A program made the position numbers and the translations under genes. Under the pieces are notes generated by a model. It was not told the origin of the DNA. It did no database searches and saw nothing but the letters and a program-made list of their open reading frames with translations. From assembly GCA_951812655.1 (NCBI GenBank), contig OX638319.1, forward strand, positions 868,001-932,000: a stretch of DNA of 64,000 nucleotides, given 5' to 3'. How positions within the stretch are numbered: position 1 is the first letter of the stretch; the number at the start of each line of letters is the position of its first letter. The DNA comes from an uncultured Candidatus Nitrosopumilus sp. GTDB taxonomy: Archaea > Thermoproteota > Nitrososphaeria > Nitrososphaerales > Nitrosopumilaceae. Shown in pieces: positions 22,914-44,184 of the stretch.

Positions 22914-24191
22914 ATGTCTAAATCTGGAAAACTATTCAATATCTCTAAAAAAGTGATTCCCTCTGGCGTAAATAGTCCTGTTCGATATTTTGAGCCTTAT
23001 CCTTTCTTCACGAAAAAAGCAAATGGGTCGCATATTTGGGATGTGGATGATAACCGATACATTGATTTTTGCAATGGTTATGGGGCATTGCTCTTAGGGC
23101 ATAGGCGAAAGGAGATTCTGAAGTCTGTTTCTAGTCAACTCTCCAAAGGAACTCTTTACTGCACTCCTACTGAATCCGAGATAGAGCTTTCAAAATTAAT
23201 TATTGGAAATTTTCCATCTGTGGACAAAGTCAGATTGATGAACACTGGTGGCGAAGCTACGATGACTGCCATTCGTTTGGCACGTGGATTCACTAAAAAG
23301 AAGAAAATAATCAAATTCGAAGGATGCTATCATGGTGCACATGATTCTGTTTTGGTAAAGGCCGGATCAGGTTCCGCACATAATGGAATCTCCGTGTCTG
23401 ATGGAGGATTAGATGAGGTTTCAAAAAATACGCTGGTTGTAGAATATAATGACATAGAAGATTTACAAAAAACCATTCAAAAAAATAAAGACATCGCAGG
23501 TGTAATCGTGGAACCTGTACTTGCTAACATGGGTCTGATTTTGCCTGAAAAGAATTTCCTTTCTGATCTACGAAAAATCACAAAAGAAAACAATATTCCA
23601 TTGATCTTTGATGAAGTTGTTACGGGTTTCAGGATTGCACCTGGGGGAGCTCAGGAATATTTTGGAATCAAACCCGATATTACGACAATGGCAAAGGCTC
23701 TCAGTAACGGATTCACCATATCTGCAGTTGGTGGCAAAAAGCAAATAATGGATTTGCTATCTCCAGGTGGCAAGGTATATCAGGCAAGTACATTTGCGGG
23801 CAATCCTATTTCTGTAAGCGCTGCCATAAGTTCGATCAAAACTATCAACAAAATGAAAAATAAGCTCTATTCAAAACTTGAAAGATACAACTTGTTGCTT
23901 TCCACCGCATTGGATGACATGGCTACTGATATGAGAATTCCACATCAAATTAATTTCACAGCATCAATGCTGCAGATTTTCTTTACTGACAAACCCGTTG
24001 TAAATTATCAGACATCCAAGAATGCAAATGCAAAGAAATTCCAAAAGTTGTTCAGAACGCTCTTGAAAAATGGAGTTTTCATCGCTCCGTCTCAGTTTGA
24101 AGTAGTCTTCTTATCTGACGCCCATACCAAAACTGATCTAAATAGAACACTTGATGCGTATCATTCTGCTTTAAAATCGGTGAAAAAATGA
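22914..24191 (+). CDS. hemL: Glutamate-1-semialdehyde 2,1-aminomutase
   Basis: 425 residues, PLP class-III aminotransferase that makes 5-aminolevulinate from glutamate-1-semialdehyde (C5 pathway). Signs are FCNGYGALLLGH, RLMNTGGEATMTAIRLARG, and DEVVTGFRIAPGG leading to the active-site Lys in MAKALSNG. The N-terminal SGVNSPVRYF matches the family. First gene of a four-gene hem operon with overlapping ATGA at the 3' end (24188). Its partner hemA lies at 38005. Confidence 0.93.
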   Translation: MSKSGKLFNISKKVIPSGVNSPVRYFEPYPFFTKKANGSHIWDVDDNRYIDFCNGYGALLLGHRRKEILKSVSSQLSKGTLYCTPTESEIELSKLIIGNFPSVDKVRLMNTGGEATMTAIRLARGFTKKKKIIKFEGCYHGAHDSVLVKAGSGSAHNGISVSDGGLDEVSKNTLVVEYNDIEDLQKTIQKNKDIAGVIVEPVLANMGLILPEKNFLSDLRKITKENNIPLIFDEVVTGFRIAPGGAQEYFGIKPDITTMAKALSNGFTISAVGGKKQIMDLLSPGGKVYQASTFAGNPISVSAAISSIKTINKMKNKLYSKLERYNLLLSTALDDMATDMRIPHQINFTASMLQIFFTDKPVVNYQTSKNANAKKFQKLFRTLLKNGVFIAPSQFEVVFLSDAHTKTDLNRTLDAYHSALKSVKK

Positions 24192-25123
24192 AGTATGTTG
24201 TAGGGGCTAGGGGAAGTCAACTATCAGTCGCACAGACAAGATGGGTAATTGCTGAATTAAAACAGGCAAACTCTGACTGTAAATACGAAATTAAACCTAT
24301 CACCACAAAGGGGGATACCGACACGCGACCTCTGTTCACCATTGATCAAAAGGGAATCTTTGAAAAAGAGATTGACCGGGCTGTTGCTCAAAAAGAAGTT
24401 GATTTTGCAGTACACAGTCTCAAAGACGTTCCTTCAGAATTGGATGCAAAACTGACGCTTGCATCTATTCCAAAACGTGAAGCTGTTAACGATGTGTTCA
24501 TTTCTTCGGATGGGTCTACACTGGATGAAATCAAAGAGGGTTCTGTAGTTGGAACTAGCTCCTTACGGCGTGCCGTTCAGATATCGAGAAAAAGGCCTGA
24601 CATCACTGTGAAGCCTATTCGCGGGAATATTGAAACCCGAATCAAAAAAATCTCTGGTGATGAATACGATGCCATCGTTCTTGCCCAAGCCGGAATATCT
24701 AGATTGAACGTAGACGTAAAATATTCTCCGTTATCCGTTGACGATTTTTCACCTTCTCCTGGACAGGGTGCGATAGCAATTGTTGCAAGGATTGACGATG
24801 ATGAAACCCTCTCAATGTTAAAAAAAATAGAAGACAGAAATACGCGTCTGGAAATAGAAGCTGAGCGCTCACTTTCAGATTATGTGGATTCTGGATGTAG
24901 ATTCCCATTGGGTGCATATGCCAAATCCGACGACTCTGACATGGATTTGACTGTTTTTGCATTTTCTGTAGATGGAAAAAAGTCTCTAAAAGTACACAAA
25001 ACAGGAAAAAAACAGGATCCAAAGAATCTTGGAAAAGATGTAGGCGAAGAATTGCGCAGACAAGGCGTAAATGATCTTGCATTAAATTGGAGGGAAAAAG
25101 TAGAGGAATGGAATAAAACATGA
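24188..25123 (+). CDS. hemC: Porphobilinogen deaminase (hydroxymethylbilane synthase)
   Basis: 311 residues. Polymerises four porphobilinogens. Motifs: ARGSQLSVAQTRWV at the start, HSLKDVPSE, GTSSLRRAVQ and the dipyrromethane-cofactor Cys in YVDSGCRFPLGAYA. Overlaps hemL by ATGA and the following cobA by ATGA, so translation is likely coupled. Confidence 0.95.
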   Translation: MKYVVGARGSQLSVAQTRWVIAELKQANSDCKYEIKPITTKGDTDTRPLFTIDQKGIFEKEIDRAVAQKEVDFAVHSLKDVPSELDAKLTLASIPKREAVNDVFISSDGSTLDEIKEGSVVGTSSLRRAVQISRKRPDITVKPIRGNIETRIKKISGDEYDAIVLAQAGISRLNVDVKYSPLSVDDFSPSPGQGAIAIVARIDDDETLSMLKKIEDRNTRLEIEAERSLSDYVDSGCRFPLGAYAKSDDSDMDLTVFAFSVDGKKSLKVHKTGKKQDPKNLGKDVGEELRRQGVNDLALNWREKVEEWNKT

Positions 25124-25860
25124 GTGGAAAAGTGTTTCTTGTTGGTGCTGGTCCTGGAGACAGTAAACTAATCACATTACGCGCGATTGAATTACTTGAA
25201 AAAGCCGATGTCGTTTTGTATGATAGATTGGTGAGCAAGAAAATAATTTCAATGATTCCAAAAAGGGCTGAAAAAGTCTACGTTGGTCGTGCTGTGGGTG
25301 ATGACACCACTCACCAAAATACAACGAATGATCTGATGGTCCAATATGCAAAATCCAAAAAAAATGTAGTTAGGCTAAAGGGCGGTGATCCAATAATCTT
25401 TGGACGTGGCGGTGAAGAAGCAGAATTTCTAAAAGAAAACAATGTAAAATATGAGATTGTTCCTGGAATTACTTCTGGGATTGGCTCTGCAACGTATGCT
25501 GGAATTCCATTGACTCATAGAAAGCATGCATCCTCTGTAGTCTTTGTAACGGGACATGAGGATCCAGAAAAGAAAAAGGAGATTGTAAAATGGAAAAATC
25601 TTGCCAAGTCCGTTGACACCATTGTGATCATGATGGGTCTTTCGCGCATAGATGTCATATGCAAGCAATTGATTGCTGGAGGTATGAATAAAAAAACACC
25701 TGTCGCAGTAATTCAAAACGGAACCACTCCTAAACAAATAATGATAAAGGGAAATGTCACAAACATTGCAAAAAAAGTCAAAGAAAACAAAATCATCCCT
25801 CCGACAAATATCATAATTGGCAACGTGGTAAATCTTTCAGAAACCATAGGGTGGAAATAA
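25120..25860 (+). CDS. cobA: Uroporphyrinogen-III C-methyltransferase (SUMT)
   Basis: 246-residue SAM-dependent methyltransferase giving precorrin-2, the branch point to siroheme, heme and cobalamin. Family features are VFLVGAGPGDSKLITLRA at the N-terminus, VVRLKGGDPIIFGRGGEE with the GGDP loop, and VPGITSGIGSATYAGIPLTH. Overlaps hemC start-stop and its TAA shares an A with the hemD ATG. Confidence 0.93.
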   Translation: MSGKVFLVGAGPGDSKLITLRAIELLEKADVVLYDRLVSKKIISMIPKRAEKVYVGRAVGDDTTHQNTTNDLMVQYAKSKKNVVRLKGGDPIIFGRGGEEAEFLKENNVKYEIVPGITSGIGSATYAGIPLTHRKHASSVVFVTGHEDPEKKKEIVKWKNLAKSVDTIVIMMGLSRIDVICKQLIAGGMNKKTPVAVIQNGTTPKQIMIKGNVTNIAKKVKENKIIPPTNIIIGNVVNLSETIGWK

Positions 25861-26657
25861 TGCTTGACGGAAAAACCATTGCAATAACTCGCTCCAGAGA
25901 TGACGCTTCGGAGTTTATATCGTTAGCCAATGAAAGTAATGCGATACCTGTCCCATTGCCCACAATTGAGCTTGTCAGCAAGGGAGAAAAAATTGTAGAT
26001 GAGTTTTTGGAATCCGTTGCAAAATACGATCCCGACTATTCCGTTTTTATGAGCTCAAAAGCAGTTAAACTATTGTTTGACACTGCAAAGAAAATTGGAA
26101 AATTGGAAAAACTGCAGCTTGCAGTTGCTAACACCACTGTAATGTCCGTAGGACCGAAAACCACTATCGCACTCGAATCTCAAGGAATTAAAGTAAATCA
26201 TCAGCCTACCACGTATTCTTCTGTAGGTGTGGGGGAAGAATTTACAAAAATCCACGCTGTAGGGAAAAAAGTAATTGTTCCTCGTAGTGGTGCATCAACC
26301 CCGTTTCTCAAAGAACTGTTGAACAAGATTGGAATTGACGTATTGGAAATTCATCTTTATGACGTCTGTGCATTTAGGGATACAGCACAGTGGAATGAAT
26401 TTCGTGAGCTATTTTCTCAAAACAAAGTGGATGGCGTTGTATTTACTAGCGCATCATCCGTACGTGGCTTTTTTGAGATAATGTCAAAAGATCATGAAAT
26501 GAAAATGCTGTTAGACAACCTTGAAAAATTATCCGTGGTATCGATTGGACCTTTTACCTCTGACGAGCTGAAAAAATTCAAAGTCAAGAATACTGTGGCA
26601 GAGGTTCATACTGTTGCAGGATCTTTTGATGCAATGAAAAATTCATTAACTGTATGA
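25860..26657 (+). CDS. hemD: Uroporphyrinogen-III synthase
   Basis: 265 residues, two-lobed HemD fold. Cyclises hydroxymethylbilane. The start is ATG 25860 (MLDGKTIAITRSRDDASEF), overlapping the cobA stop; GTG 25851 lies nine bases upstream in frame. Conserved segments are VFMSSKAVKLLF and VVFTSASSVRGFFEIM. HemD is divergent in sequence, so operon context supports the call. Last gene of the hem operon. Confidence 0.88.
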   Translation: MLDGKTIAITRSRDDASEFISLANESNAIPVPLPTIELVSKGEKIVDEFLESVAKYDPDYSVFMSSKAVKLLFDTAKKIGKLEKLQLAVANTTVMSVGPKTTIALESQGIKVNHQPTTYSSVGVGEEFTKIHAVGKKVIVPRSGASTPFLKELLNKIGIDVLEIHLYDVCAFRDTAQWNEFRELFSQNKVDGVVFTSASSVRGFFEIMSKDHEMKMLLDNLEKLSVVSIGPFTSDELKKFKVKNTVAEVHTVAGSFDAMKNSLTV

Positions 26658-28223: not shown

Positions 28224-28253
28224 TCTCACCAACACATTTAATTTTGATTAATC

Positions 28254-29654
28254 ATGTCTCAAGAAACTCTTTCAAAACTCAACACAACCCTCGTGGACGA
28301 GATCTCCTCATCAAGGAATGAGCCTGAATGGCTAAAGGATTACCGAAAAAATTCATTGTCTGTATACGACAGTCTGCCCCTTGAACTTTCTCCTCTTTAC
28401 AACAAGTATACTGATGCAAAAAAGATGGATCCTGAAAAAGTATCTCTTTCAACATCTACTGCAGAAACAATTCCTGGTTTTTTGACAAAACGATTGGGTG
28501 AACTGGAAAATGAAATCTGCGTTATTCAAATAGGAACCAATATTCTAAAAATCAATCTACCTGATGAACTAAAATCAAAAGGTTTGGTGATCTCTTCTAT
28601 TTCTGATGCAATAAAAAACAATTCTGAATTGGTAAAAAAGGCTCTAGATGCTTCAAAATCTGAAGAAGACAAATTCACCGCACTAAATAATGCTGCTTTT
28701 AATTCAGGCATATTCATTCACATTCCACGTAATTTGATTGTGGATAAACCGATCTATTTCATGACTTGTTTATCTGAAGATGGTCATTCTACAATTTCAA
28801 GAAATATAATTTTTGCAGACGAAAGTAGCAAGGCTAGCATAGTTCAAGAATTATACTCACCAAGTATTCAAACTCAACAAGCGTATTTGGAATTGATGAA
28901 TACTAGTGCTGGTGCAAATGCTCAGTTGGATATTACAACTTTACAAATGATTGATCAGCATGCGGTAGCCTTTTCAACAAAAAGAACAGACTTGGCTCAG
29001 GATGCTAAAGTAAATTGGTATTCTGGATTATTTGGTTCCATGCTATCGAGATACAAAATAGAATATTTCCTTAACGGAACGGGTGCTTCATGTAATGATT
29101 CTGAGGTAATCTTTGGAAACAATGAGCAGTCCTTTGACATTCAAACTAACGTAAATCATGAAAGTCCGGCAACTGAAGGCAGGGTTGTCGAAAAATCTAT
29201 TCTTCGAAACAAGTCAAAATCCCTTTTCAAGGGAATGATCAGAATTAAAGAAAACGCTCCCAAGTCAAACTCATTTTTGTCAGGCCGTTCAATTTTATTG
29301 GATAAGGATGCTAAGTCTGATGCTATACCTGGATTAGAAATTTTTACAAATGATGTAAAGGCCACTCACTCTGCGTCAGTTGCACAAATTGATGAGGAGC
29401 AAGTTTTCTATTTGAAAAGTAGATGTCTTACTCATGAGGAAGCTGAGAGAATAATAGTTGAAGGATTCTTAGAACCTCTTTCAAGAAAAATGTCAATCCA
29501 AGTCCGAGCATGGATTGCTTATCTTATAGAGTCTAAATGGGAAAATCGTGAACTTACAATTAACACTGACGAAGAACTGGCCAAGTTTGTCGAAATTGAG
29601 GAAACTCGTTATAACGAAGACTCTGAAATAGAGCAGCATTACAAGTATCGGTGA
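28254..29654 (+). CDS. sufD: Fe-S cluster assembly protein SufD
   Basis: 466 residues, paralogue of SufB that completes the SufBCD scaffold. It starts with an EPEWLKDYRKNSLSVYDS-type N-terminal helix, and has FIHIPRNLIVDKPIYF, then the SufBD C-terminal block LKSRCLTHEEAERIIVEGFL. The key Cys ligands of SufB are absent as expected. Overlap or close spacing continues with the Rieske gene four bases after the stop. Confidence 0.93.
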   Translation: MSQETLSKLNTTLVDEISSSRNEPEWLKDYRKNSLSVYDSLPLELSPLYNKYTDAKKMDPEKVSLSTSTAETIPGFLTKRLGELENEICVIQIGTNILKINLPDELKSKGLVISSISDAIKNNSELVKKALDASKSEEDKFTALNNAAFNSGIFIHIPRNLIVDKPIYFMTCLSEDGHSTISRNIIFADESSKASIVQELYSPSIQTQQAYLELMNTSAGANAQLDITTLQMIDQHAVAFSTKRTDLAQDAKVNWYSGLFGSMLSRYKIEYFLNGTGASCNDSEVIFGNNEQSFDIQTNVNHESPATEGRVVEKSILRNKSKSLFKGMIRIKENAPKSNSFLSGRSILLDKDAKSDAIPGLEIFTNDVKATHSASVAQIDEEQVFYLKSRCLTHEEAERIIVEGFLEPLSRKMSIQVRAWIAYLIESKWENRELTINTDEELAKFVEIEETRYNEDSEIEQHYKYR

Positions 29655-29658
29655 TATT

Positions 29659-29967
29659 TTGTCTGAATGGATTAAGGCTTGCAGTATGGAGCAGGTAAAA
29701 GAAGGTCAACTTTTTGGATTCGTACATGATGATAAGAAACTCTTGATAGCCAATCTCAAGGGGAAAATACACGCAACTGACTTGATCTGTACACATGCTG
29801 ATGCAGATTTGTCCACCGGATTTCTCAGTGAAGAGGGTGTAAGATGCCCGTTGCATCTTTCTGTATTTAATCTGGTAAATGGTAAACCTCAAAATCTTCC
29901 AGCTGAAGATCCACTCAACGTATACAATGTTAAAATAGATGCTGACGAAATTTTTGTGGAGGTATAG
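29659..29967 (+). CDS. Rieske [2Fe-2S] ferredoxin
   Basis: 102 residues, a NirD-like or dioxygenase-type Rieske ferredoxin. The two cluster-binding boxes are complete: CTHADADL (C-x-H at residues 44-46) and CPLHLSVFN (C-x2-H near residue 63). No membrane anchor. It lies four bases after sufD and three before sufS, so it belongs to the suf operon; it may supply electrons for assembly or be a client. Start is TTG 29659. Confidence 0.88.
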   Translation: MSEWIKACSMEQVKEGQLFGFVHDDKKLLIANLKGKIHATDLICTHADADLSTGFLSEEGVRCPLHLSVFNLVNGKPQNLPAEDPLNVYNVKIDADEIFVEV

Positions 29968-29970
29968 GAG

Positions 29971-31215
29971 TTGCAAAGCACAGAATCCCAATTTGAAAAC
30001 ATACGTGATGACTTTCCCATTCTAAAAAGAACTGTTAGGGATAACAAGCCGCTCGTCTATTTGGACAATGCTTCTACCACCCAAAAACCTAATCAGGTTA
30101 TTGATTCTATTACTGATTACTATAGAAACCATAATGCAAATATTCACAGGGCAGTTTATGCACTGGCTGAGGAATCTACTGAGGCTTATGAGGCATCACG
30201 GGATAAAATTGCAAATTTTGTCAACATAGAGAATCGACAGGAGATTATCTTTGTTCGGGGTACCACTGAGGCAATCAATTTGATTGCGTATGCATGGGGC
30301 AGACCCCATATCGATGAGGGAGATATTGTTGTTACAACTGAGTATGAACATCACAGTAACATTGTGCCATGGCAACTCGTAACTCAAGATAAGCGTGCAA
30401 AATTGGAATACATTGGAATGGATGATAATGGCGAATTGATTTTGGATGATCTTGACAAGTATCTTGCAACTGGCAAAGTCAAACTTGTCACTTTTAGTTT
30501 AATGTCTAATGTTCTTGGAACAATCACCAATGCTGAAAAAATCATTGAAAAATGTAAAGCTGCTGGTGTTCTTACGCTAATTGATGGTGCTCAGGCGGTT
30601 CCTCACATGAAAGTTGATATTGAAAAATTAGGCTGTGACTTTTTTGCATTCTCGGGACATAAAATGCTGGGGCCTACTGGAATTGGAGTTTTATGGGTTA
30701 GAAAATCTGTTCTACAGACCATGAGTCCTTTTCATGGCGGTGGTGACATGATTCGAGAAGTTCACAAATATGAAACTACGTGGAATGATTTGCCTTACAA
30801 ATTTGAAGCAGGTACCCCAAATATTGCGGATGTGATAGGGTTGGGTTCCGCAATAGACTATCTTTCCAAAATCGGAATGGAGAATATTAGAAAACATGAG
30901 ATAGAACTAACAAAATACGCCATTGAAAAACTGTCTGCTGTCAAGGGACTTCACATCTATGGCACCAAGGATATTTCAAAACGTGGAGGTGTAATATCCT
31001 TTAATTTTGCAGATGTTCATCCTCATGATGTTGCTCAAATAATAGATGAAGAGGGAATTGCAGTTCGTTCTGGTCATCATTGTGCACAAGTTCTTATGGA
31101 AAGGCTGGATGTAGCTGCAACATCCCGGGCCAGTTTTTATATCTATAACACCAAACACGACATTGATATTCTGGTAAATTCACTTAATACTGTGGCAAAG
31201 GTGTTCAAATTATGA
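29971..31215 (+). CDS. sufS: Cysteine desulfurase (SufS class II)
   Basis: 414 residues, PLP enzyme that frees sulfur from cysteine. Active-site Lys is in FSGHKMLGPTGIGVLW and the persulfide Cys in RSGHHCAQVLMERL; the HxH-type EYEHHSNIVPW loop is present. TTG start directly after the Rieske gene. The stop overlaps the sufU ATG by four bases. Confidence 0.95.
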   Translation: MQSTESQFENIRDDFPILKRTVRDNKPLVYLDNASTTQKPNQVIDSITDYYRNHNANIHRAVYALAEESTEAYEASRDKIANFVNIENRQEIIFVRGTTEAINLIAYAWGRPHIDEGDIVVTTEYEHHSNIVPWQLVTQDKRAKLEYIGMDDNGELILDDLDKYLATGKVKLVTFSLMSNVLGTITNAEKIIEKCKAAGVLTLIDGAQAVPHMKVDIEKLGCDFFAFSGHKMLGPTGIGVLWVRKSVLQTMSPFHGGGDMIREVHKYETTWNDLPYKFEAGTPNIADVIGLGSAIDYLSKIGMENIRKHEIELTKYAIEKLSAVKGLHIYGTKDISKRGGVISFNFADVHPHDVAQIIDEEGIAVRSGHHCAQVLMERLDVAATSRASFYIYNTKHDIDILVNSLNTVAKVFKL

Positions 31216-31655
31216 GTAGTAACGCAGACATTTACCATGAGATGATAGTTGATTATTCAAGGAATCCTGTCAATTATGGGGAAATTGAGAATCATGATGT
31301 TACGTTTCACGATTCAAATCCGCTTTGCGGGGACAGTATTGACATTGATATGAAAATTGACGATAATCATGTATCTGATATTAAATTTCATGGAAAAGGA
31401 TGTGCAATCTGTATGGCGTGCTCATCAGTTTTGACTGAAATTACAAAAGGCAAGAGTATCGATGAGGCAAGAGCAATTGAGAAAAATGATGTTTTGGGAG
31501 AACTGGGTCTAGAACATCTGCAGGCTGTAAGAATCAAATGCGCTTTACTTTCTCTAAAAGTATTAAAATCTGCTCTTTACACATACATGGGAAATCATCT
31601 AAAAGATAATGAAGATCTTGACAAACTAAAAGAAGAGGCAGCCAATCTGTACTAG
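31212..31655 (+). CDS. sufU: SufU/IscU-like Fe-S scaffold or sulfur-transfer protein
   Basis: 147 residues. The three conserved Cys and Asp are visible: NPLCGDSIDID, GKGCAICMACSSVL and KCALLSLKVLK, as in SufU, where a zinc site helps transfer sulfur from SufS to the scaffold. Overlaps sufS by ATGA, consistent with direct partnership. Confidence 0.93.
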   Translation: MSSNADIYHEMIVDYSRNPVNYGEIENHDVTFHDSNPLCGDSIDIDMKIDDNHVSDIKFHGKGCAICMACSSVLTEITKGKSIDEARAIEKNDVLGELGLEHLQAVRIKCALLSLKVLKSALYTYMGNHLKDNEDLDKLKEEAANLY

Positions 31656-33282: not shown

Positions 33283-34257
33283 TTGACATCACTAGAAAAC
33301 TTGATAGTTAAATTACACAAAGAAAAACAAGAAGCAAAAAAACTCAAAAAACAGGCTGAAACTCAGATGAATGAGTCTCTTTCTGTGGAAAAACGCTCAT
33401 CTTCAGGTCTTCGCTCGGTTGAAAAAAAGATTCAATCTGAACGTGAAGAATCATCTGGTATTTCTGAGGTACTTGCTAGGAAAACATCTCAATTAGAAAG
33501 TATTGAAAGACTGATAGCTATGGCCGAAGAAAAATTGAAACGTGAAAAGGAGATGGTAGATGAAACCGAGCAAGAAATTGAATTCGCTGAAAGTTCAAGT
33601 GAAAAAGAGTCTGCTGAGGAAAAATTACGTTCATTAAACGCTCATCTTCAAGAACTTCTTTCTGAAATCAAGAGTAGACAGAAAACTGCAAAAAAGATTT
33701 TTGACGATGTGGAAAACTATTCAAAGATTCAATCAAAACTAAGCTTACAAATTCAAAAACAAATTCAATCCAAATCCTCCTTGAGAAATACAATGATTGA
33801 CAGTCGTAGATCTGCAAAAAGTCTTTTGGGAGAATTGGAAAAACAAACCAAAGCTGAGGAATTTGCAAAAAAATCTTTGGATGATGTATTTTTAAGATTG
33901 AAAAAAATCTCTAAGAGGAAGCCTGCAGCGAAGAAGGCCGCAGCTAAGAGGAAGCCTGCAGCGAAGAAGGCCGCAGCTAAGAGGAAGCCTGCAGCGAAGA
34001 AGGCCGCAGCTAAGAGGAAGCCTGCAGCGAAGAAGGCCGCAGCTAAGAGGAAGCCTGCAGCGAAGAAGGCCGCAGCTAAGAGGAAGCCTGCAGCGAAGAA
34101 GGCCGCAGCTAAGAGGAAGCCTGCAGCGAAGAAGGCCGCAGCTAAGAGGAAGCCTGCAGCGAAGAAGGCCGCAGCTAAGAGGAAGCCTGCAGCGAAGAAG
34201 GCCGCAGCTAAGAGGAAGCCTGCAGCGAAGAAGGCCGCAGCTAAGAGGAAAAACTGA
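33283..34257 (+). CDS. Coiled-coil protein with Lys/Ala/Pro repeat tail (H1-like)
   Basis: 324 residues. The N-terminal about 210 residues are a long charged coiled coil (heptads rich in E, K, Q and [21 protein letters not shown] onward). The C-terminal tail is [11 protein letters not shown] repeated ten times, then KRKN. Such strongly basic tails resemble eukaryotic H1 and bacterial HU-like tails that bind DNA or RNA without sequence specificity. TTG start. The tail corresponds to a perfect DNA minisatellite. Confidence 0.85.
33913..34242 (+). repeat. Minisatellite: ten perfect 33-bp units
   Basis: Ten tandem identical copies of a 33-base unit starting AAGAGGAAGCCTGCAGCG, coding [11 protein letters not shown], followed by a partial unit AAGAGGAAA. 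No base differs between units by eye, and the unit is GC-rich against an AT-rich background. Confidence 0.95.
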
Positions 34258-36685: not shown

Positions 36686-36997
36686 TTAGCCATAATCTAG
36701 ATATCTGTCAATTCTAACTTCGATTTCTTTGCTCTCTCCAGATTTGATTTTCCTATATTCTTCTTTTTTTCTAAATTCTATGTATTTGCAGATTTCTGAA
36801 AATTCTTCTTCTTGTGGATATGAATTAAAAACTGGTTCTGCAAGCTGTAGGTACTCTATCGTCTTTTCTCTGAATTCTTCTCTTGATGGTTTTTTTATTC
36901 CCTTCATTCTAAACCAAACAGCTGTCCAGCTTGCGCCTATGACGTGAGGCAATAGGTCAAAGGCCCTTTGTATTTCAAAACGTTCATCGTTTCTCAT
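36686..36997 (-). CDS. Conserved hypothetical protein, 103 aa, downstream of hemB
   Basis: Charged, helical protein. Motif-like stretch VIGASWTAVWFRMKGIKKPS and an EEEFSEICKYIEFRKKEEYR helix are visible; family not recognised. Its ATG overlaps the hemB stop by four bases, so it is part of the hemB operon. Confidence 0.65.
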   Translation of the reverse strand: MRNDERFEIQRAFDLLPHVIGASWTAVWFRMKGIKKPSREEFREKTIEYLQLAEPVFNSYPQEEEFSEICKYIEFRKKEEYRKIKSGESKEIEVRIDRYLDYG

Positions 36998-37974
36998 GAT
37001 TTCTGTAAGAACTTTGAAGCTGATTTTGCAAAATACGTCACAATCATGTCCGCACCTGCTCTTTTGATAGAGTGTAATATTTCTAATGTGATGTCCTCCT
37101 CATTTACATATCCAAGCTGAGATGCAGCTTTCACTAAAGCATATTCCCCTGATACGCTGTATGCTGAAACTGGGACATTAAATTTTCTTCTGGTTTCTGC
37201 AATCAAATCCAAATACGATAGTGCAGGTTTTATCATCACGATGTCCACACCTTCTTCGATATCGGATTCTACTTCCATCATTGCCTCTCTTGCATTGGTA
37301 TATGGAACCTGGTATGTTTTTCTGTCTCCAAATTTTGGTGCACATTCTGCAGCGTCTCTAAATGGTGAGTAGAAATTTGAACGATGTTTTGCAGAATGCG
37401 ACATTATCGAAACATCTGTAAATCCTTCATCATCTAATGCTTCCCTTATTGCCAAGACTTGGCCATCCATCATCGCTGATGGTGATACTGTGTCTACTCC
37501 TGCTCTAGCTTGACTAACTGCAATTTTTGCCAGTGTTTCTAAACTGACATCGTTATCAATTTTGTTTCCATTAATAATTCCGCAATGCCCTGTGGATGTA
37601 AATTGACAAAGACAAACATCTGCCATGATGACTATTTTGTCTCCAAATTTTTCTCTAATCTGGGAAATTGCTTTTTGAACTATTCCGTTTTCATCAAATG
37701 CCGAACTGCCTGATTCATCTTTTTTAGATGGTATGCCAAAAATCATTATAGCCGGAATTCCTAAATCTATGATTTTTCCAACTTCTTCATTTACGTCTTT
37801 TAATGGCAATCTCTCTATTTCTGACATTGACTGTACCCGAATTCTGTCTTCAATGTCTTCCTGTACAAATACGGGACAAATGAAATCTTTTGGAGAAAGG
37901 GTTGTTTCTTGAACCAATTCTCTCATTTTATCTGATATTCTTAGTCTGCGAAGACGTCTAGTCGGAAATGACAT
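36994..37974 (-). CDS. hemB: Porphobilinogen synthase (delta-aminolevulinate dehydratase)
   Basis: 326 residues, condenses two 5-aminolevulinate molecules to porphobilinogen. The active-site zinc ligand stretch DVCLCQFTSTGHCG (119-132; Cys 121, 123, 131) marks the zinc-dependent type. Schiff-base Lys regions are SHSAKHRSNFYSPFRDA and MIKPALSYLDLI. Thirty bases follow hemA, so both are likely in one minus-strand operon. Confidence 0.95.
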   Translation of the reverse strand: MSFPTRRLRRLRISDKMRELVQETTLSPKDFICPVFVQEDIEDRIRVQSMSEIERLPLKDVNEEVGKIIDLGIPAIMIFGIPSKKDESGSSAFDENGIVQKAISQIREKFGDKIVIMADVCLCQFTSTGHCGIINGNKIDNDVSLETLAKIAVSQARAGVDTVSPSAMMDGQVLAIREALDDEGFTDVSIMSHSAKHRSNFYSPFRDAAECAPKFGDRKTYQVPYTNAREAMMEVESDIEEGVDIVMIKPALSYLDLIAETRRKFNVPVSAYSVSGEYALVKAASQLGYVNEEDITLEILHSIKRAGADMIVTYFAKSASKFLQKS

Positions 37975-38004
37975 GTTAAAATCTCTTCAATCTAAAATAT
38001 AATT

Positions 38005-39276
38005 CTAGTCTGTTTGTTTTGGTTTTTTATAGTCAAACAGTTTGGTAGCAAGATCTATGACATCTGGGTTACCTTGCTCGGACGCTTTTCTGATGTTATT
38101 CATTGGTGTTGACACGATGCTTTCCACTACCGCTTTTGTAAGTGCGTCGATAATCTTTATTTTTCTCTCATCTTTCTCATCGAGCATCTGAAGTGCTTTT
38201 TGCAACTCTTTTTCTCTAAGATTCTCTATATTTTTGAAGACGTCTTTTACAAGTGGTTCTGCATCTAGTCTTTTCATTGAGGCTTCTAATACAGAAACTT
38301 CCTCATTAATTATATTTTCAACGATCTTCACCTTGTTTAATCTGGCATTCATGTTCTTTTCCACCATCTCTGCAATCTGATCAAGATTCATAAGTTTCAC
38401 GCCTCCTATGGTCGCAACTTTTTCATCCACTGTTCTGGGGTTGGATAAATCTAGAATCATCATGCCTTTATCTTTATTTCTCATGGCCTGAGTAATTTTT
38501 TCATTGGTAACAAGAAAGTAAGGTGCGGTTGTTGCCACAAAAATTACATCATAGTTGTCAAATCCTGAAAGAACCTCTTCGAATTTCACAGCACTGCCTC
38601 CCATTGCTTCACAAAATGTTTCTGATCTTCCGATGGTTCTGCTTGTAACGTCAAATCTATATCCTCTTCTTTGTAATGATTTTGCAACTAGAGTTGACAC
38701 TTCTCCTGTTCCTATTAGTAGAACCTGTTTTGTTTTAAGATCATCTATGTTTTCTTCAGCCAATTTAACTGCCATTGATCCCACTGAAATTCCCCCTGCC
38801 CCTATGCCGCTGGAATTCCTGATTCTGGTTCCAATTCTTATGGCCTTATCAAACAAAGTATTGAGGTGCTGACCTGATGCTTTGACTTCTCTGGCTGACG
38901 TGATTGAATTTTTAATTTGGCCGAGAATTTGCTCCTCTCCCAATACCATGGAATCTAATCCAGAAGTTAATTTTAGTAAATGATGCAGAGCATCTTGATT
39001 TTCTACAAATTCAATATTTTTTTTAAATTCTTCCTCTTCAATACCTGTAATCGCTGCCCATATTTTCTGAATTTTATTTGCATCGGAAATTTTAGATTTT
39101 CCAAACAATTCTATCCTGTTGCAAGTTTGTATAATCACGCATTCATCTAGTCCTGAGTGTTTTCTGAATTGGTCATATGCATTATTCATATCTTTGATTG
39201 TAAATTGCTCTAGAATGTGAATTGGTGAGTTACGAAATGTAATACGTGCATTGATGATTTTTTGATTCATTTCCAA
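38005..39276 (-). CDS. hemA: Glutamyl-tRNA reductase
   Basis: 423 residues. Reduces glutamyl-tRNA(Glu) to glutamate-1-semialdehyde, the substrate of HemL. The catalytic Cys is in ECVIIQTCNRIELFG (about residue 51). The NADP domain follows as VLLIGTGEVSTLVAKSLQRR and the C-terminal dimerisation helices run to the end. Overlaps the end of the precorrin-2 dehydrogenase gene by ten bases. Confidence 0.95.
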   Translation of the reverse strand: MEMNQKIINARITFRNSPIHILEQFTIKDMNNAYDQFRKHSGLDECVIIQTCNRIELFGKSKISDANKIQKIWAAITGIEEEEFKKNIEFVENQDALHHLLKLTSGLDSMVLGEEQILGQIKNSITSAREVKASGQHLNTLFDKAIRIGTRIRNSSGIGAGGISVGSMAVKLAEENIDDLKTKQVLLIGTGEVSTLVAKSLQRRGYRFDVTSRTIGRSETFCEAMGGSAVKFEEVLSGFDNYDVIFVATTAPYFLVTNEKITQAMRNKDKGMMILDLSNPRTVDEKVATIGGVKLMNLDQIAEMVEKNMNARLNKVKIVENIINEEVSVLEASMKRLDAEPLVKDVFKNIENLREKELQKALQMLDEKDERKIKIIDALTKAVVESIVSTPMNNIRKASEQGNPDVIDLATKLFDYKKPKQTD

Positions 39277-39920
39277 TTCCTCAGTATTGTGGTGGCTCTC
39301 TCTTCAGCTTTTTTTGTTTGACCGTGTTTAATTAACTGATCAATCTGATTATCATTCATGATACTGCGCAAACACTGTTTTCTTTGTTTCTGATCTGAAA
39401 TGCATTCTTTTGCCATGGATCTAGCCATATCCTGAATTTTAACTTGAATAATGTCCTCTTTTGTAATTATTTTTTTCAATGCTGATGATGCTTTTTCTTT
39501 GATCTTTTTTGTCATTGCGGGGCTTTTTCCTCCTGTAAAAATTGCTATTTGAACTGTGTTCTCAATATTTATTATTGCAGGATTTGAAAAATCACTCTTC
39601 TCAGGATCATCTGAACTGTAGGCTGTGATTTTCTTCTTTTTGGCAAAATTCAATATTTTTTGATTCATTTTTTTATCATCTGTTGATATGATGATAAGAT
39701 CTGGTTGCATCTCTGAAATAAATTTCGTATTTGTAATTTTCTGTTCTTTTAATGTAATTTTCTTTGTTTTAGATATTTTTTTAATTTGTGCATTTATTGA
39801 CTCACTGATCACTGTGATATGGCATTCTTGATTTAATGCCGAATTGATTCTTTTTTCTGCCTCATTACCTCCTCCGATGACGATGATTTTTTTACCTTTG
39901 ATATTTAGATCGACTATCAT
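39267..39920 (-). CDS. Precorrin-2 dehydrogenase / siroheme synthase N-terminal domain
   Basis: 217 residues of the Met8/SirC family: NAD-binding IKGKKIIVIGGGNEAEKRIN (residues 7-26), then the dimerisation region TGGKSPAMTKKIKEKASSAL. Oxidises precorrin-2 to sirohydrochlorin; whether it also inserts iron (ferrochelatase) is unclear. First gene of the minus-strand hem operon. This provides siroheme for the decarboxylase at 40014. Confidence 0.88.
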   Translation of the reverse strand: MIVDLNIKGKKIIVIGGGNEAEKRINSALNQECHITVISESINAQIKKISKTKKITLKEQKITNTKFISEMQPDLIIISTDDKKMNQKILNFAKKKKITAYSSDDPEKSDFSNPAIINIENTVQIAIFTGGKSPAMTKKIKEKASSALKKIITKEDIIQVKIQDMARSMAKECISDQKQRKQCLRSIMNDNQIDQLIKHGQTKKAEERATTILRNWK

Positions 39921-40013
39921 CGATCCAAAGCACTTCGTTTTCTATTTATGTATTATAAAATAATGATGAGAACGTAAGCTACATTTTTAATTGAATGTCA
40001 GAATGTTTACTCA

Positions 40014-41039
40014 TTGTCTTCTTTGGGCGAATCTGATAAAGAATTGCTGAATGAAATTCAGTGGACTTTTCCATTGGTGACAAGACCTTTTGACGCCATT
40101 GCTAAAAAGTTTGATACCACTCCTGAAAATATTAAGAAACAGCTTAATGAATTAAAGAAGATAGGCGTTTTGAGACAACTAAGTGCAATTTTTGATACTA
40201 GAAAACTTGGCTACACTAGCTCTTTGGTGGCTATGGAGATTAAATCTGATCAGCTTGAAAACGTAGCCAACCAAATAAATCGACATCCTGGTGTAAGTCA
40301 TAACTATGAGCGAGATCATCAGTTTAATCTCTGGTTTACCTTGGCTGTTCCTCCTGGTGCTGATTTGAAAGAAGAACTTGAGAAATTCAACGTTCTAAAA
40401 GGAATTAAAACAGTTAGAATGCTTCCAACTTTACAATTATTCAAAATTGGTGTTAAACTTGACATGGTCGATGAGAAGAAACACGATGTAGCTCCAACTG
40501 AAGAGAAAAAAGAAATTAAAAATGTTAAGTTTGTTCCTACTGAAGAAGACAAAGATTTCATCCGTGAGTTACAAAAAGACATGGATATCCTTGATGAGCC
40601 CTTTGTAAATGCCGCAAAAAATCTTGGAATTACTGAAGATGAATTATTTGCAAAAATGAAACATTATGAAGATATTGGTGTTATGCGAAGATTTGCAGCT
40701 ATCTTAAGACACAGACAAGTTGGATTTACCGCCAATGGTATGATTGTATGGAAGGTACCTGAAGATAGAATTGCCAAAGTTGGAGAAACTTTGGGTTCGT
40801 TTCCTCAAGTAAGTCATTGTTATGAGAGACCCACATATGCTGATTGGCCTTACAATGTGTTTTCAATGATTCACTGTAAAACTCATGAGGAGGCAAATGA
40901 AATGGCAAGAACTATTCAAGATCAAATTAATGTTGATGAATACAAAATTCTCTTTAGTACGAGAGAATTCAAAAAAACTCGTGTGGAATACTTCGTGGAA
41001 AATTCTTTTAGTTTAGAAGAATCTGTTCCTGCATCTTAG
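40014..41039 (+). CDS. Siroheme decarboxylase, fused AhbB-AhbA-like
   Basis: 341 residues. Two Lrp/AsnC-like halves: residues 1-150 with HTH-like start and GVSHNYERDHQFNLWFTL (93-110), and residues 178-330 with VSHCYERPTYADWPYNVFSM (266-285), joined by a charged linker (152-177). These motifs are those of AhbB and AhbA/NirDLGH, which remove two acetate carboxyls from siroheme on the way to heme. Tools often mislabel it as an AsnC regulator. It is divergent from the hemA operon, which makes siroheme precursors. Confidence 0.87.
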   Translation: MSSLGESDKELLNEIQWTFPLVTRPFDAIAKKFDTTPENIKKQLNELKKIGVLRQLSAIFDTRKLGYTSSLVAMEIKSDQLENVANQINRHPGVSHNYERDHQFNLWFTLAVPPGADLKEELEKFNVLKGIKTVRMLPTLQLFKIGVKLDMVDEKKHDVAPTEEKKEIKNVKFVPTEEDKDFIRELQKDMDILDEPFVNAAKNLGITEDELFAKMKHYEDIGVMRRFAAILRHRQVGFTANGMIVWKVPEDRIAKVGETLGSFPQVSHCYERPTYADWPYNVFSMIHCKTHEEANEMARTIQDQINVDEYKILFSTREFKKTRVEYFVENSFSLEESVPAS

Positions 41040-41374
41040 AATTCATTTTCATCATGTCCTACGATATGAATTGTACAAAAATACTGATCATTCATATTGC
41101 AATAGTATTGTGAGTCTTCTCTGCATTCTTTACATGGTGGTTTTTCATCTAGTTCTGAAAGTTTAGTGTGGTATACCTTGCTTCTAGACGTAACTCCTGA
41201 TTCTTTATAGATTCTAGTAATGTTTGAATAATATTCTAATTCTTCAGGACTAAGTTTTTGATAGTTTTTAATTTTCTTTATCATGTATTCCCATTTTTTG
41301 TATTTGCCTATCTTGGCAATCTTCATTCTTTCAATAACTTCTAAGGTTTTTTCTACATCTATTGGATTGCTCAT
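41036..41374 (-). CDS. Small protein with C-terminal B-box-like zinc finger
   Basis: 112 residues. The N-terminal helical part is rich in Lys and Glu. The C-terminal segment CKECREDSQYYCNMNDQYFC then THIVGHDEN holds the C-x2-C...C...C-x2-H...H pattern of a B-box-type zinc finger. Function unknown. Overlaps the convergent siroheme-decarboxylase stop by 4 bases. Confidence 0.6.
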   Translation of the reverse strand: MSNPIDVEKTLEVIERMKIAKIGKYKKWEYMIKKIKNYQKLSPEELEYYSNITRIYKESGVTSRSKVYHTKLSELDEKPPCKECREDSQYYCNMNDQYFCTIHIVGHDENEF

Positions 41375-41381
41375 TTACAAA

Positions 41382-42380
41382 TTAATTTGCTTGAGGTGTT
41401 ACTTTTAATTCGTATGGAGGCCAAGTATTGTACAAATCCTCGACTTCTTTCATATCTGAATCTGAAATGTATTTCCCATCAGACATTTGGGCATAATTGA
41501 CAATTTCTTCTTCACTGATCATTGTGGGAAGCACAGTTGCAAATCCCTTTTTTGTCATCATATACTTCATTGCAAATTCTGTGATGTTCAATCCGTTTCT
41601 ATCTGCAATTGGTTTAAACTGCTCAACTTTTTCTAATGATGCTTTGAGCCATTCTCTCTTTCTTACTGATCTATGATCATTATCATCAAATTTTGTATCT
41701 GCATTGACCTTTCCTGTTAAAATTCCTGATGCCTCTGGCACTCTAACTAGAATTCCTACCTCTTTCTCTTCGGCTTTTTTCATTAATTCGTTTCCTGGTG
41801 TTTGTTCTAAAATGTTGTAAACTGTTTGAACTGCACTGAGGTTTGGTTTGTCCATCGCTTCCATGCCTTCTTGAGTCCATCCAATTGCAGGGCCTAGGGC
41901 AATTTGATATGTTTTGATAGAACCATCTTTGATGAAACTATCTAATACGTTGAAAATAGAATTGTTTCTTACGTCTTTTAATTTTGGATTATGTACCCCG
42001 TACATGTCCACATAATCTGTTTGTAATCGTTCCAAACTATTTCTTAATGCCATTCTAGTATAATCTTCGTCAAATCTTTGCGGAAGTTCCTTATGTCCAA
42101 TCTGTTCAACTCCGCTAAAATCATAACCATATTTTGTAGAAATAACAATCTCGTCTCTCATATCTTTGAAAACTTCACCAATTAGTTTTTCACTTAATCC
42201 TTTTCCATACAAATCCCCCGTCTCAAAGAAATTAATCCCTACGTCATATGCTTTTTTGAGCATTCGTTTTGCTTCATCTTCTTCAATTTTTTTGCCCCAC
42301 CAATCTAGAGCAATTGCCCATGCCCCAAATCCTATCTCTGAGATTTTGATATCTGTTTTTCCCAGTTTATTGTATTTCAA
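41382..42380 (-). CDS. Aldo/keto reductase
   Basis: 332-residue NADPH-dependent TIM-barrel reductase. Catalytic tetrad: D and Y in TGDLYGKGLSE, K in ISTKYGYDFSG and H in YGVHNPKL. N-terminal MKYNKLGKTDIKISEIGFGA matches the family start. The substrate (aldehyde or ketone) is unknown. It is close to the B-box gene (8 bases) on the same strand, so perhaps one operon. Confidence 0.92.
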   Translation of the reverse strand: MKYNKLGKTDIKISEIGFGAWAIALDWWGKKIEEDEAKRMLKKAYDVGINFFETGDLYGKGLSEKLIGEVFKDMRDEIVISTKYGYDFSGVEQIGHKELPQRFDEDYTRMALRNSLERLQTDYVDMYGVHNPKLKDVRNNSIFNVLDSFIKDGSIKTYQIALGPAIGWTQEGMEAMDKPNLSAVQTVYNILEQTPGNELMKKAEEKEVGILVRVPEASGILTGKVNADTKFDDNDHRSVRKREWLKASLEKVEQFKPIADRNGLNITEFAMKYMMTKKGFATVLPTMISEEEIVNYAQMSDGKYISDSDMKEVEDLYNTWPPYELKVTPQAN

Positions 42381-42464
42381 AACTATTTTTTATTTGAAAT
42401 TTCATCATTTATGTTTATCCGAGATTTGCAATTTTGATATTTGATTTTTAAATAATCTGAAGGT

Positions 42465-43139
42465 TCATCCTAAACTAGAAATCATTGGAATGATGTCTTT
42501 TTTCACACATACGATCATCGGTATGTCATTTTTGACGTATGTTGAAACTTGAGTTTCTCTCAAATCCATGATTAAATTCTGAAAATCTCTGATATCATCT
42601 ACTTCAAATGCGAGCATGAAATCCTCGTCATGTATTCCGAATGAGTATGTGGTATTGAGTACCACTTGAGGGTATTTTTTACTAATTTCTATGTGCTCAT
42701 CCATTATCTCTTGACGTTTTTCTTTTGGAAGGAGATACCATTCTCTTGTTTTTGTAAATGGATACACTATGACGTGTTTTTTTGGATGATTTCCGGTTAC
42801 AAATCCGTGAGCCTTTTGTTCTTGAACGTATAGTGATGGTCTTGTACATGACAAGTACGTCATTGACGGAATTATGTATTTTCCAAATACTGTTTTGTAT
42901 ATTTTCTCAATCACTTTTTGTATTTCTTCAACTGATTTTGCTGCGAACCAAAACAAAAAATCTGTATCGTCTCTTAACCCTAAATTTGAATACGATCTAA
43001 ACATAATTCCTGAATTATTAACCACGTTCTCTACTTCTTTTGCAGATTCTTCTTTAGCCAGATCTGCCATCCATCTCCATTTTGGATCTACTTTGAAAAA
43101 TGAGAAATTAAAATAATATTGATCATTTTCTTCAGACAT
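42465..43139 (-). CDS. Chlorite dismutase-like / coproheme decarboxylase (ChdC/HemQ family)
   Basis: 224 residues with the two-lobed Cld fold. IVYPFTKTREWYLLP (124-138) carries the catalytic Tyr-Lys pair (Y126, K130), and NTTYSFGIHDEDFMLAFE holds a His (H170) in the place of the proximal heme ligand. Members remove two carboxyls from coproheme to give heme b. In siroheme-pathway organisms this could complete heme synthesis in place of AhbD. A true chlorite dismutase would be an alternative, but heme genes nearby favour ChdC. Confidence 0.82.
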   Translation of the reverse strand: MSEENDQYYFNFSFFKVDPKWRWMADLAKEESAKEVENVVNNSGIMFRSYSNLGLRDDTDFLFWFAAKSVEEIQKVIEKIYKTVFGKYIIPSMTYLSCTRPSLYVQEQKAHGFVTGNHPKKHVIVYPFTKTREWYLLPKEKRQEIMDEHIEISKKYPQVVLNTTYSFGIHDEDFMLAFEVDDIRDFQNLIMDLRETQVSTYVKNDIPMIVCVKKDIIPMISSLG

Positions 43140-43413: not shown

Positions 43414-44184
43414 TTAGGCTGATTGTTCTAAAGCCCACTCGTAACCTTCTGCTTCCAATTTATCTGCAAGACTTGCATCGCCTGTTTTTAATACTTGACC
43501 TTTAGCGAATACGTGAACGAAATCTAATTTGTCCAAGAATTTCAAAATTCTTGCATAATGGGTGATGATGATGACTGTCGCATCTTTTCCTGATACTTTG
43601 CTAATTGCTTGTGCTACTGCTTGAACAGCATCAATATCTAATCCTGAATCTGGCTCATCTAAAATTGAAATTTTGGGCTTCAATACTGCCATCTGTAATA
43701 CTTCTGCACGTTTTTTCTCTCCTCCTGAAAATCCCTCGTTGAGATACCTTGAAAGAAATTCTTCTCTTAATCCTACTTTTTCCAAGTTTTCTTTGAGGTA
43801 TTTCTGAAACTCTCTTACTGTGATGAACACCTCTCTGTCGTCTCCTTCCAATGCTTTACTTAATGAATTATATGCTGTTCTGAGAAAATGTGAGAATCCT
43901 ACTCCTGAAACTTCAGTCGGATATTGAAATCCGAGAAATAATCCCTTTTTAGCTCTTTCATCGGCTGATAAATCTAATATGCTTTCACCATCTAGTAAAA
44001 TGTCTCCTTTCGTAACCTCGTATTTCGGATGTGCTAGTAAAGTGTAGGCTAATGTGCTTTTTCCAGAACCGTTCGGTCCCATGATTGCATGCACTTCTCC
44101 TGGACCCGTTTTCAAATTGACGCCTTTGAGAATTTCTTTTCCTTCTCTTGTCACGTGCAGATCTTTAATTTCTAATATCGCCAT
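43414..44184 (-). CDS. sufC: Fe-S cluster assembly ATPase SufC
   Basis: 256-residue ABC ATPase of the SufBCD scaffold: Walker A GPNGSGKSTL, signature FSGGEKKRAEVLQMAVL, Walker B ISILDEPDSGLD and H-loop IITHYARIL. It lies 15 kb from sufBD rather than in the operon. Single gene on the minus strand with 94 bases to the TFB gene. Confidence 0.95.
   Translation of the reverse strand: MAILEIKDLHVTREGKEILKGVNLKTGPGEVHAIMGPNGSGKSTLAYTLLAHPKYEVTKGDILLDGESILDLSADERAKKGLFLGFQYPTEVSGVGFSHFLRTAYNSLSKALEGDDREVFITVREFQKYLKENLEKVGLREEFLSRYLNEGFSGGEKKRAEVLQMAVLKPKISILDEPDSGLDIDAVQAVAQAISKVSGKDATVIIITHYARILKFLDKLDFVHVFAKGQVLKTGDASLADKLEAEGYEWALEQSA

Follow-up and report, generated by a model that had tools for sequence, protein, structure and literature searches.

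The question raised by this locus is how an ammonia-oxidising archaeon (AOA) may complete heme synthesis when its genome encodes a predicted siroheme decarboxylase (AhbAB) and a homologue of the coproheme decarboxylase ChdC, and neither of the radical S-adenosylmethionine (radical-SAM) enzymes AhbC and AhbD is detected. The DNA is a stretch of 64,000 nucleotides, called the window here, from an uncultured Candidatus Nitrosopumilus sp. (contig OX638319.1), and is contained in a complete genome of 1.67 Mb. Three genes of the window are of main concern:

40014..41039, + strand: fused ahbA-ahbB, predicted siroheme decarboxylase (siroheme to 12,18-didecarboxysiroheme); NF040708 and NF040707 over cut-off, PF17805 twice, PF22451 twice
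41382..42380, − strand: aldo/keto reductase (AKR) of a distinct clade tied to AhbAB and ChdC, candidate for the AhbC step; PF00248
42465..43139, − strand: chdC, predicted coproheme decarboxylase of the chlorite-dismutase family (coproheme to heme b); PF06778

The reading favoured here, with modest confidence, is that the late heme pathway of the AOA is a siroheme route in which the AKR and ChdC replace both AhbC and AhbD.

Identity of the two predicted decarboxylases

An earlier note on this DNA had described the first gene as an AhbB-AhbA-like fusion acting on siroheme. The fusion is borne out, as both subunit models score over their cut-offs, but the order is the reverse. The N-terminal half matches AhbA (NF040708, 275.9 bits, cut-off 140) with the best stretch at residues 8–151, and the C-terminal half matches AhbB (NF040707, 260.1 bits, cut-off 125) at residues 183–326; the order is therefore AhbA-AhbB. 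Activity of the fused protein as a siroheme decarboxylase, at C12 and C18, is predicted from these matches. The fused ahbAB of Nitrosopumilus maritimus was already listed in 2010 (PMC3004389), and the fusion and its presence in that species are also given in PMC11237513.

The open reading frame at 42465–43139 matches Chlor_dismutase (PF06778) with 203 bits. The NCBIfam model that fits it best is HemQ_actino, which was trained on actinobacteria; the score of 148 bits is under the cut-off of 235. The earlier note had given Y126, K130 and H170 as the residues shared with coproheme decarboxylases. Y126 and K130 are invariant among 19 aligned ChdC proteins, whereas position 170 is a His in 3 of the 19. 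The invariant His is H149, which we take to be the proximal heme ligand and which aligns with a His in the coproheme decarboxylases solved from Corynebacterium and Streptomyces; the number H170 was presumably taken from a chlorite dismutase.

For seven AOA genomes, PMC5817080 tabulates the homologue under the name "chlorite dismutase-like enzyme", which would suit a chlorite dismutase or a peroxidase in place of ChdC. Among solved structures, however, coproheme decarboxylases are closest to it in both sequence and fold, and its relatives occur in operons with HemE and HemH. Residues 150–181, where the catalytic Arg of a chlorite dismutase would presumably be expected, contain no Arg. The protein thus has the catalytic Tyr126, the proximal His and no distal Arg, while true chlorite dismutases carry Ile in place of the Tyr and have the distal Arg (PMC7611857). 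A chlorite dismutase or peroxidase is accordingly considered hardly credible. The protein is likely the final heme enzyme, predicted from its sequence to convert coproheme to heme b with peroxide, and ChdC is the likely last step because no AhbD is detectable.

Absence of AhbC and AhbD matches and the heme gene states of the class

The genome contains 15 radical-SAM matches. Eleven of these proteins match other curated families or subfamilies, some of them under the model cut-off (CofG, CofH, MqnC, MqnE-like, BioB, Tes, Elp3, MiaB-like methylthiotransferase, RlmN, TYW1 and KamA-like). The orphan protein at L005:1162-2058 (298 aa) has weak best matches to PhpK/HpnJ-type models, and the proteins of L012, L013 and L015 have no family match at E ≤ 1e-20; L013 resembles QueE by eye. 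Proteins of no confident family are hence those of L005, L012:1129-2709 (526 aa) and L015:679-2412 (577 aa). None of the 15 matches an AhbD model, in agreement with the absence of AhbD that the earlier note had supposed. The AhbC model TIGR04546 also detects an AhbD-like protein, with E = 5.8e-49, so that an AhbD of this genome should have surfaced. The best match of the genome to TIGR04546 has only E = 1.6e-7, and no AhbC is found. CobA, SirC and AhbAB of the Ahb pathway are thus found in the genome, and the radical-SAM enzymes AhbC and AhbD are not.

The absence of AhbC extends to the order. In a sample of 120 genomes of the class, 83 of which belong to the order of the window, no real match was obtained in the order (0 of 83, best E 4.4e-18), while all nine AhbAB-bearing genomes outside the order match TIGR04546 with E from 7.6e-40 to 5.1e-78. 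A sample of the phylum includes 49 genomes of the order, and none of them appears among the matches listed at E ≤ 1e-30.

Three states of the heme genes are found in the class. In the first, outside the order, the nine genomes with AhbAB all have AhbC-like matches and eight have no ChdC; the ninth, G010, has both an AhbC-like match and ChdC. In the second, seen in three genomes of family f8 (G004, G020 and G026) and in G095 of family f4 in the own order, ChdC is present without AhbAB, and chdC lies in an operon of coproporphyrin-pathway style with hemA, hemC, hemD, hemB and hemL, followed by two genes that match HemE and HemH over cut-off in G095 and G004. The third, in which AhbAB and ChdC occur without AhbC, is that of 82 of the 83 own-order genomes. 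ChdC is thus present in 83/83 and AhbAB in 82/83, the exception being G095 with its coproporphyrin operon.

Such operons were read at L032:5761-13513, L038:5072-12913, L039:1789-9697, L040:5317-13086 and L061:4791-11828, in families f4, f8 and f23. They contain hemA, hemC, hemD, hemB, chdC, hemL, HemE and HemH (HemH excepted in the part read of L061), and no coproporphyrinogen oxidase gene was recognised beside the five. The coproporphyrin operons are a third heme solution within this archaeal phylum.

These operons bear on whether AOA heme comes from siroheme at all. AhbAB might serve another purpose and the coproheme of ChdC might come from an unrecognised branch, given that HemE and HemH feed ChdC elsewhere in the class and that the absence of AhbC favours a source other than siroheme. 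However, ahbAB adjoins chdC or the AKR gene in nearly all genomes, and it is lost in G095, the sole own-order genome with HemE and HemH. HemE and CpfC/HemH are not among the window proteins scanned, no search for either having been made in the whole genome, and archaeal genomes outside the Thermoplasmatales, that of N. maritimus among them, are reported to lack hemE, hemF/N and hemH (PMC3004389). A source other than siroheme is therefore regarded as improbable.

The outline of a pathway ending in ChdC, drawn in the earlier note, holds as far as AhbAB, ChdC and the missing AhbD are concerned, and a siroheme route ending with ChdC is the best reading of these three. As an outline it is incomplete, because AhbC, which the note had reported as missing from the window, is found neither in the whole genome nor in the sampled genomes of the order, and a simple AhbABC-ChdC hybrid does not fit here. 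Such a hybrid is not new, being in print for Haloferax volcanii, where AhbABC with PitA, a ChdC-ABM fusion, serves aerobically and AhbD anaerobically (PMC5746218). That aerobic archaeon resembles the present organism in a siroheme decarboxylase feeding a last enzyme of ChdC type. It differs in that Haloferax keeps AhbC and AhbD, neither of which is found here, and in that the ChdC of the window carries no ABM domain and is accompanied by the linked AKR; the siroheme route known to end in ChdC is one with AhbC kept (PMC5746218, PMC8305020). A simple hybrid could be saved by a strongly diverged AhbC missed by the model. With no SPASM-type AhbC-like protein among the 15 radical-SAM proteins and none in the 83 genomes of the order, this is very unlikely.

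The AOA heme gap itself is already published. Sulfolobus acidocaldarius, Haloquadratum walsbyi and N. maritimus are given as having no nirJ1/nirJ2 in Storbeck et al. 2010 (PMC3004389), and Park et al. 2014 (PMC4010524) give the AOA as having no such genes and state that their heme synthesis needs more screening; the absence of AhbC found here agrees with both. Among open-licence PMC papers, no published substitute for AhbC and no AKR linked to siroheme-route heme synthesis was found.

The aldo/keto reductase linked to AhbAB and ChdC

The earlier note was silent on the AKR gene, which lies between ahbAB and chdC. AKR presence was determined in 80 genomes, namely 57 own-order genomes with AhbAB, G095, six genomes with AhbAB outside the order, three of family f8, ten of family f27, which we take to be Sulfolobaceae, and three others. 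Each of the 57 own-order genomes, all of the third state, has one AKR ortholog with 51–100% identity. In 49 of them the gene has both chdC and ahbAB within 3 kb, in six it has only chdC and in two only ahbAB at this distance, and in none is it distant from both. Where the cluster has been rearranged, ahbAB was relocated on the same contig and the AKR gene remained beside chdC (G046, G072 and G081), or chdC was relocated and the AKR gene remained beside ahbAB (G088); four further separations are contig breaks. The ahbAB-AKR-chdC neighbourhood is conserved across the order and is not due to chance.

G095, with its coproporphyrin operon, has only a distant AKR match of 28% identity. Outside the order, an AKR relative of 38% identity directly adjoins chdC in G010, and one adjoins AhbAB in G205; the AhbAB and ChdC trees pair these two genomes, matching the AKR tree. 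Two proteins of 202 aa that are alike and have no Pfam match were seen in these genomes, one adjoining ahbAB in G010 (L041:15132-15740) and one between AKR and AhbAB in G205 (L079:8717-9325), and they may represent an unrecognised chelatase.

All ten tested f27 genomes have an AKR relative (34–39% identity). The AKR was rejected as a gene of a Sulfolobaceae heme cluster, as it is not beside heme genes there. Eleven of the 14 f27 genomes with a protein of the chlorite-dismutase family have AhbC-like matches, and G170, G180 and G292 have none. In the control S. acidocaldarius, AhbAB and the ChdC family are present and AhbC gives no match. Among Sulfolobaceae, AhbAB was checked in this species, and for other members it rests on the table of Storbeck et al. 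(PMC3004389).

In a maximum-likelihood tree of 66 AKR rows, with the two long rows L120_bact and L081_G095 left out, 28 rows form one clade with a bootstrap of 100 and an SH-aLRT of 99. The clade comprises the AKRs of AOA, f27, G010 and G205, Chloroflexota/SAR202, Poribacteria, Methylacidiphilaceae, two Planctomycetota and one metagenome-assembled genome (MAG) of Omnitrophota. L120 had joined it in an earlier tree with a branch length of 2.7. Outside it fall the closest AKRs of genomes with AhbAB only (G008, G018, G021 and G030) and with a coproporphyrin operon (G020 and G172), the AKR of G278, extra copies in two AOA (G096 and G099) and generic bacterial AKRs. The clade AKR accompanies AhbAB and ChdC together, and neither of them alone.

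The clade AKRs have in common ALGP and RVPxA-type motifs, and most also have HN and DHR, a combination that is rare outside the clade; generic AKRs have GVSN-type and SPLA-type motifs instead. At the positions that we take to be those of the AKR tetrad Asp-Tyr-Lys-His, Y58, K83 and H130 are invariant, and the first position is mostly Asp, with Glu in the window protein and some AOA and Asn in L077. As the tetrad positions are kept, the protein looks like a working oxidoreductase, for which NAD(P)H-dependent activity is predicted. An AF2 model of the window AKR (pLDDT 88) has the standard AKR barrel and is nearest to AKR11. The AKR11 family (IolS 1pyf, AKR11B 1pz1 and AKR11C1 1ynp) has the same fold and tetrad positions at about 25% identity (VIA-align Z 33–36). 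Structure searches led to AKR11 and to nothing that would predict a tetrapyrrole substrate.

The bacterial counterparts were obtained by a profile scan with an alignment of two AKRs. The best 80 of 582 relatives were considered, of which the top rows were useful and most were generic AKRs; 34 of these 80 loci entered the trees and 15 the genome checks, with L084 omitted as a near copy of L083. Eight bacterial genomes with a full-length clade AKR were checked (five Chloroflexota/SAR202, one Poribacteria and two Methylacidiphilaceae), some of them being incomplete MAGs. AhbAB is present in all eight, weakly (E ~1e-8) in both Methylacidiphilaceae, ChdC is present in seven and missing in the MAG of L082, and AhbC is found in none (best E 5.4e-24). 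On the Poribacteria contig the genes for AKR, ChdC, AhbAB and HemA, their families confirmed, are contiguous on one strand, and those for AKR and ChdC overlap by 4 bp. The two Planctomycetota of the clade have AhbAB, ChdC and AhbC (E 1e-124 and 1e-129), and in the 0.9 Mb MAG of Omnitrophota ChdC is matched partially and AhbAB not at all. ChdC without AhbAB is seen in four genomes with an AKR outside the clade (L092, L093, L102 and L128).

The AKR/ChdC/AhbAB module is thus found in AOA, SAR202, Poribacteria and Methylacidiphilaceae. AhbAB of the AOA has 43–46% identity to that of SAR202 and Poribacteria, compared with 27% to that of G010 of its own class, and this nearness suggests that the module may have been transferred between archaea and bacteria. 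Deinobacterium chartae, used as a control, has PF17805, the chlorite-dismutase family and DUF1802 and no AhbC match at 1e-30, and is a candidate for a further lineage with the same AhbC gap.

A gene for DUF1802 (PF08819) lies between chdC and the AKR gene in many AOA and near the AKR gene in SAR202 and Methylacidiphilaceae (e.g., L035:7345-7902, L044:9863-10396, L082:1884-2489, L085:4780-5538 and L088:11157-11762). It was found in 42 of the 120 class genomes, and a PF08819 search did not find it in the genome of the window; it was rejected on these counts as a substitute for AhbC or an essential step. A DUF1802 gene beside chdC in one AOA genome (G112:C1:52131-52633) has stop codons, which fits with DUF1802 being dispensable.

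Proposed route and its gene setting

Two enzymes of the Ahb pathway, AhbC and AhbD, are missing and two proteins, the AKR and ChdC, are present; with ChdC doing the work of AhbD, gene content and neighbourhood lead us to infer that the step of AhbC would be taken by the AKR, acting singly or together with ChdC. AhbAB would decarboxylate siroheme to didecarboxysiroheme. In place of AhbC, the AKR, with or without ChdC, would remove the acetate chains of rings A and B to give coproheme, and ChdC would convert coproheme to heme b with peroxide. The AKR and ChdC would then constitute an oxygen-compatible module in place of the anaerobic pair. In an aromatase-like version, which is proposed here, peroxide-driven ChdC would oxidatively decarboxylate each acetate, so that the quaternary carbon would be left with a one-carbon alcohol or aldehyde. 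The AKR would interconvert these two forms with NAD(P), and the aromatic porphyrin would arise as formate is lost. This scheme predicts formate and CO2, and not acetate, as products.

Several points weigh against the assignment of the AhbC step to the AKR. Characterised AKRs are NAD(P)H-dependent carbonyl/alcohol oxidoreductases, and we know of no AKR chemistry in which a quaternary ring carbon loses its acetate chain. Several genomes with AhbC (G010, G205, most Sulfolobaceae-like genomes and two Planctomycetota) also have a clade AKR, which is therefore not strictly complementary to it, and in f27 the AKR gene is not near heme genes. The proteins of L005, L012 and L015 could be unrelated substitutes for AhbC. 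The conservation of neighbours within the order is partly shared descent, DUF1802 is a second linked gene, although one lost from the genus of the window, and the bacterial genomes were reached via their AKR, so that their counts are no unbiased sample. The AhbC reaction itself is described as mechanistically unsolved (PMC7242693).

Part of this evidence would suit a helper function, in which the AKR belongs to the pathway and serves redox balance, the disposal of carbonyl or peroxide by-products or the reduction of off-pathway macrocycles, while coproheme is made by ChdC or by an unlinked enzyme, e.g., a radical-SAM protein. The AKR tracks ChdC with AhbAB even where AhbC is present (G010, G205, L101 and L104), three radical-SAM proteins of no family assignment are possible makers of coproheme, and acetate removal fits AKR chemistry poorly. 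On the other hand, the clade AKR is not found where HemE and HemH feed ChdC (G004, G020, G026, G095 and G172), and it is therefore not a general helper of ChdC; nor is it found with AhbAB alone. The helper function is considered rather unlikely, and replacement of AhbC and AhbD by the AKR and ChdC remains the favoured reading.

The earlier genes that the pathway shares with other routes lie in two further parts of the window:

22914..24191, + strand: hemL; TIGR00713, 541 bits, cut-off 527
24188..25123, + strand: hemC; TIGR00212 over cut-off
25120..25860, + strand: cobA/SUMT, uroporphyrinogen-III C-methyltransferase; TIGR01469 and NF004790 over cut-off
25851..26657, + strand: hemD, uroporphyrinogen-III synthase; PF02602, 169 bits
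36994..37974, − strand: hemB, porphobilinogen synthase; NF006762 over cut-off
38005..39276, − strand: hemA, glutamyl-tRNA reductase; TIGR01035 over cut-off
39267..39920, − strand: precorrin-2 dehydrogenase, sirC type; TIGR01470, 86 bits, cut-off 62

The presence of hemA, hemB, hemL, hemC, hemD, cobA and the precorrin-2 dehydrogenase, as named in the earlier note, is confirmed by these model and domain matches at 22914–26657 and 36994–39920. The order across 36994–43139 is hemB-hemA-sirC (− strand), ahbAB (+), a frame of 112 aa assigned to no family, AKR and chdC (−), followed by sufC. Genes of iron-sulfur assembly are interspersed with the heme genes and also flank them (26823–31655 and 43414–44184); most of the AOA loci read have sufC next to chdC, and SAR202 loci have sufB/sufC-like genes near the AKR gene. 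At 33283–34257 the window encodes a protein with a long repeat tail resembling a histone tail or a DNA-binding tail.

The gene set has HemA/L/B/C/D, SUMT, precorrin-2 dehydrogenase and AhbAB in common with the Ahb pathway of Methanosarcina and Desulfovibrio, and differs from it in the absence of AhbC and AhbD and the presence of ChdC and the AKR. With the coproporphyrin-dependent pathway (HemE, CgoX, CpfC and ChdC) it shares ChdC as the last enzyme. It differs in having AhbAB and SirC, whereas the class operons of that type (f4 and f8) stand in genomes that have neither AhbAB nor a clade AKR. A further oxygen-adapted heme route of archaea and bacteria, consisting of siroheme, AhbAB and then the AKR with ChdC replacing the radical-SAM pair, is put forward tentatively.

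AOA, which are among the most abundant cells of the ocean, depend on heme for cytochrome b in complex III. Published genome surveys left the route by which they make it unexplained (PMC3004389 and PMC4010524). The linked AKR is a concrete candidate for the open heme step, and it recurs in several bacterial phyla. If the reading is true, the AKR would be the first deacetylase for didecarboxysiroheme from outside the radical-SAM enzymes. Action of an AKR on didecarboxysiroheme would be unexpected tetrapyrrole chemistry, and it would explain how aerobes can dispense with two oxygen-sensitive radical enzymes.

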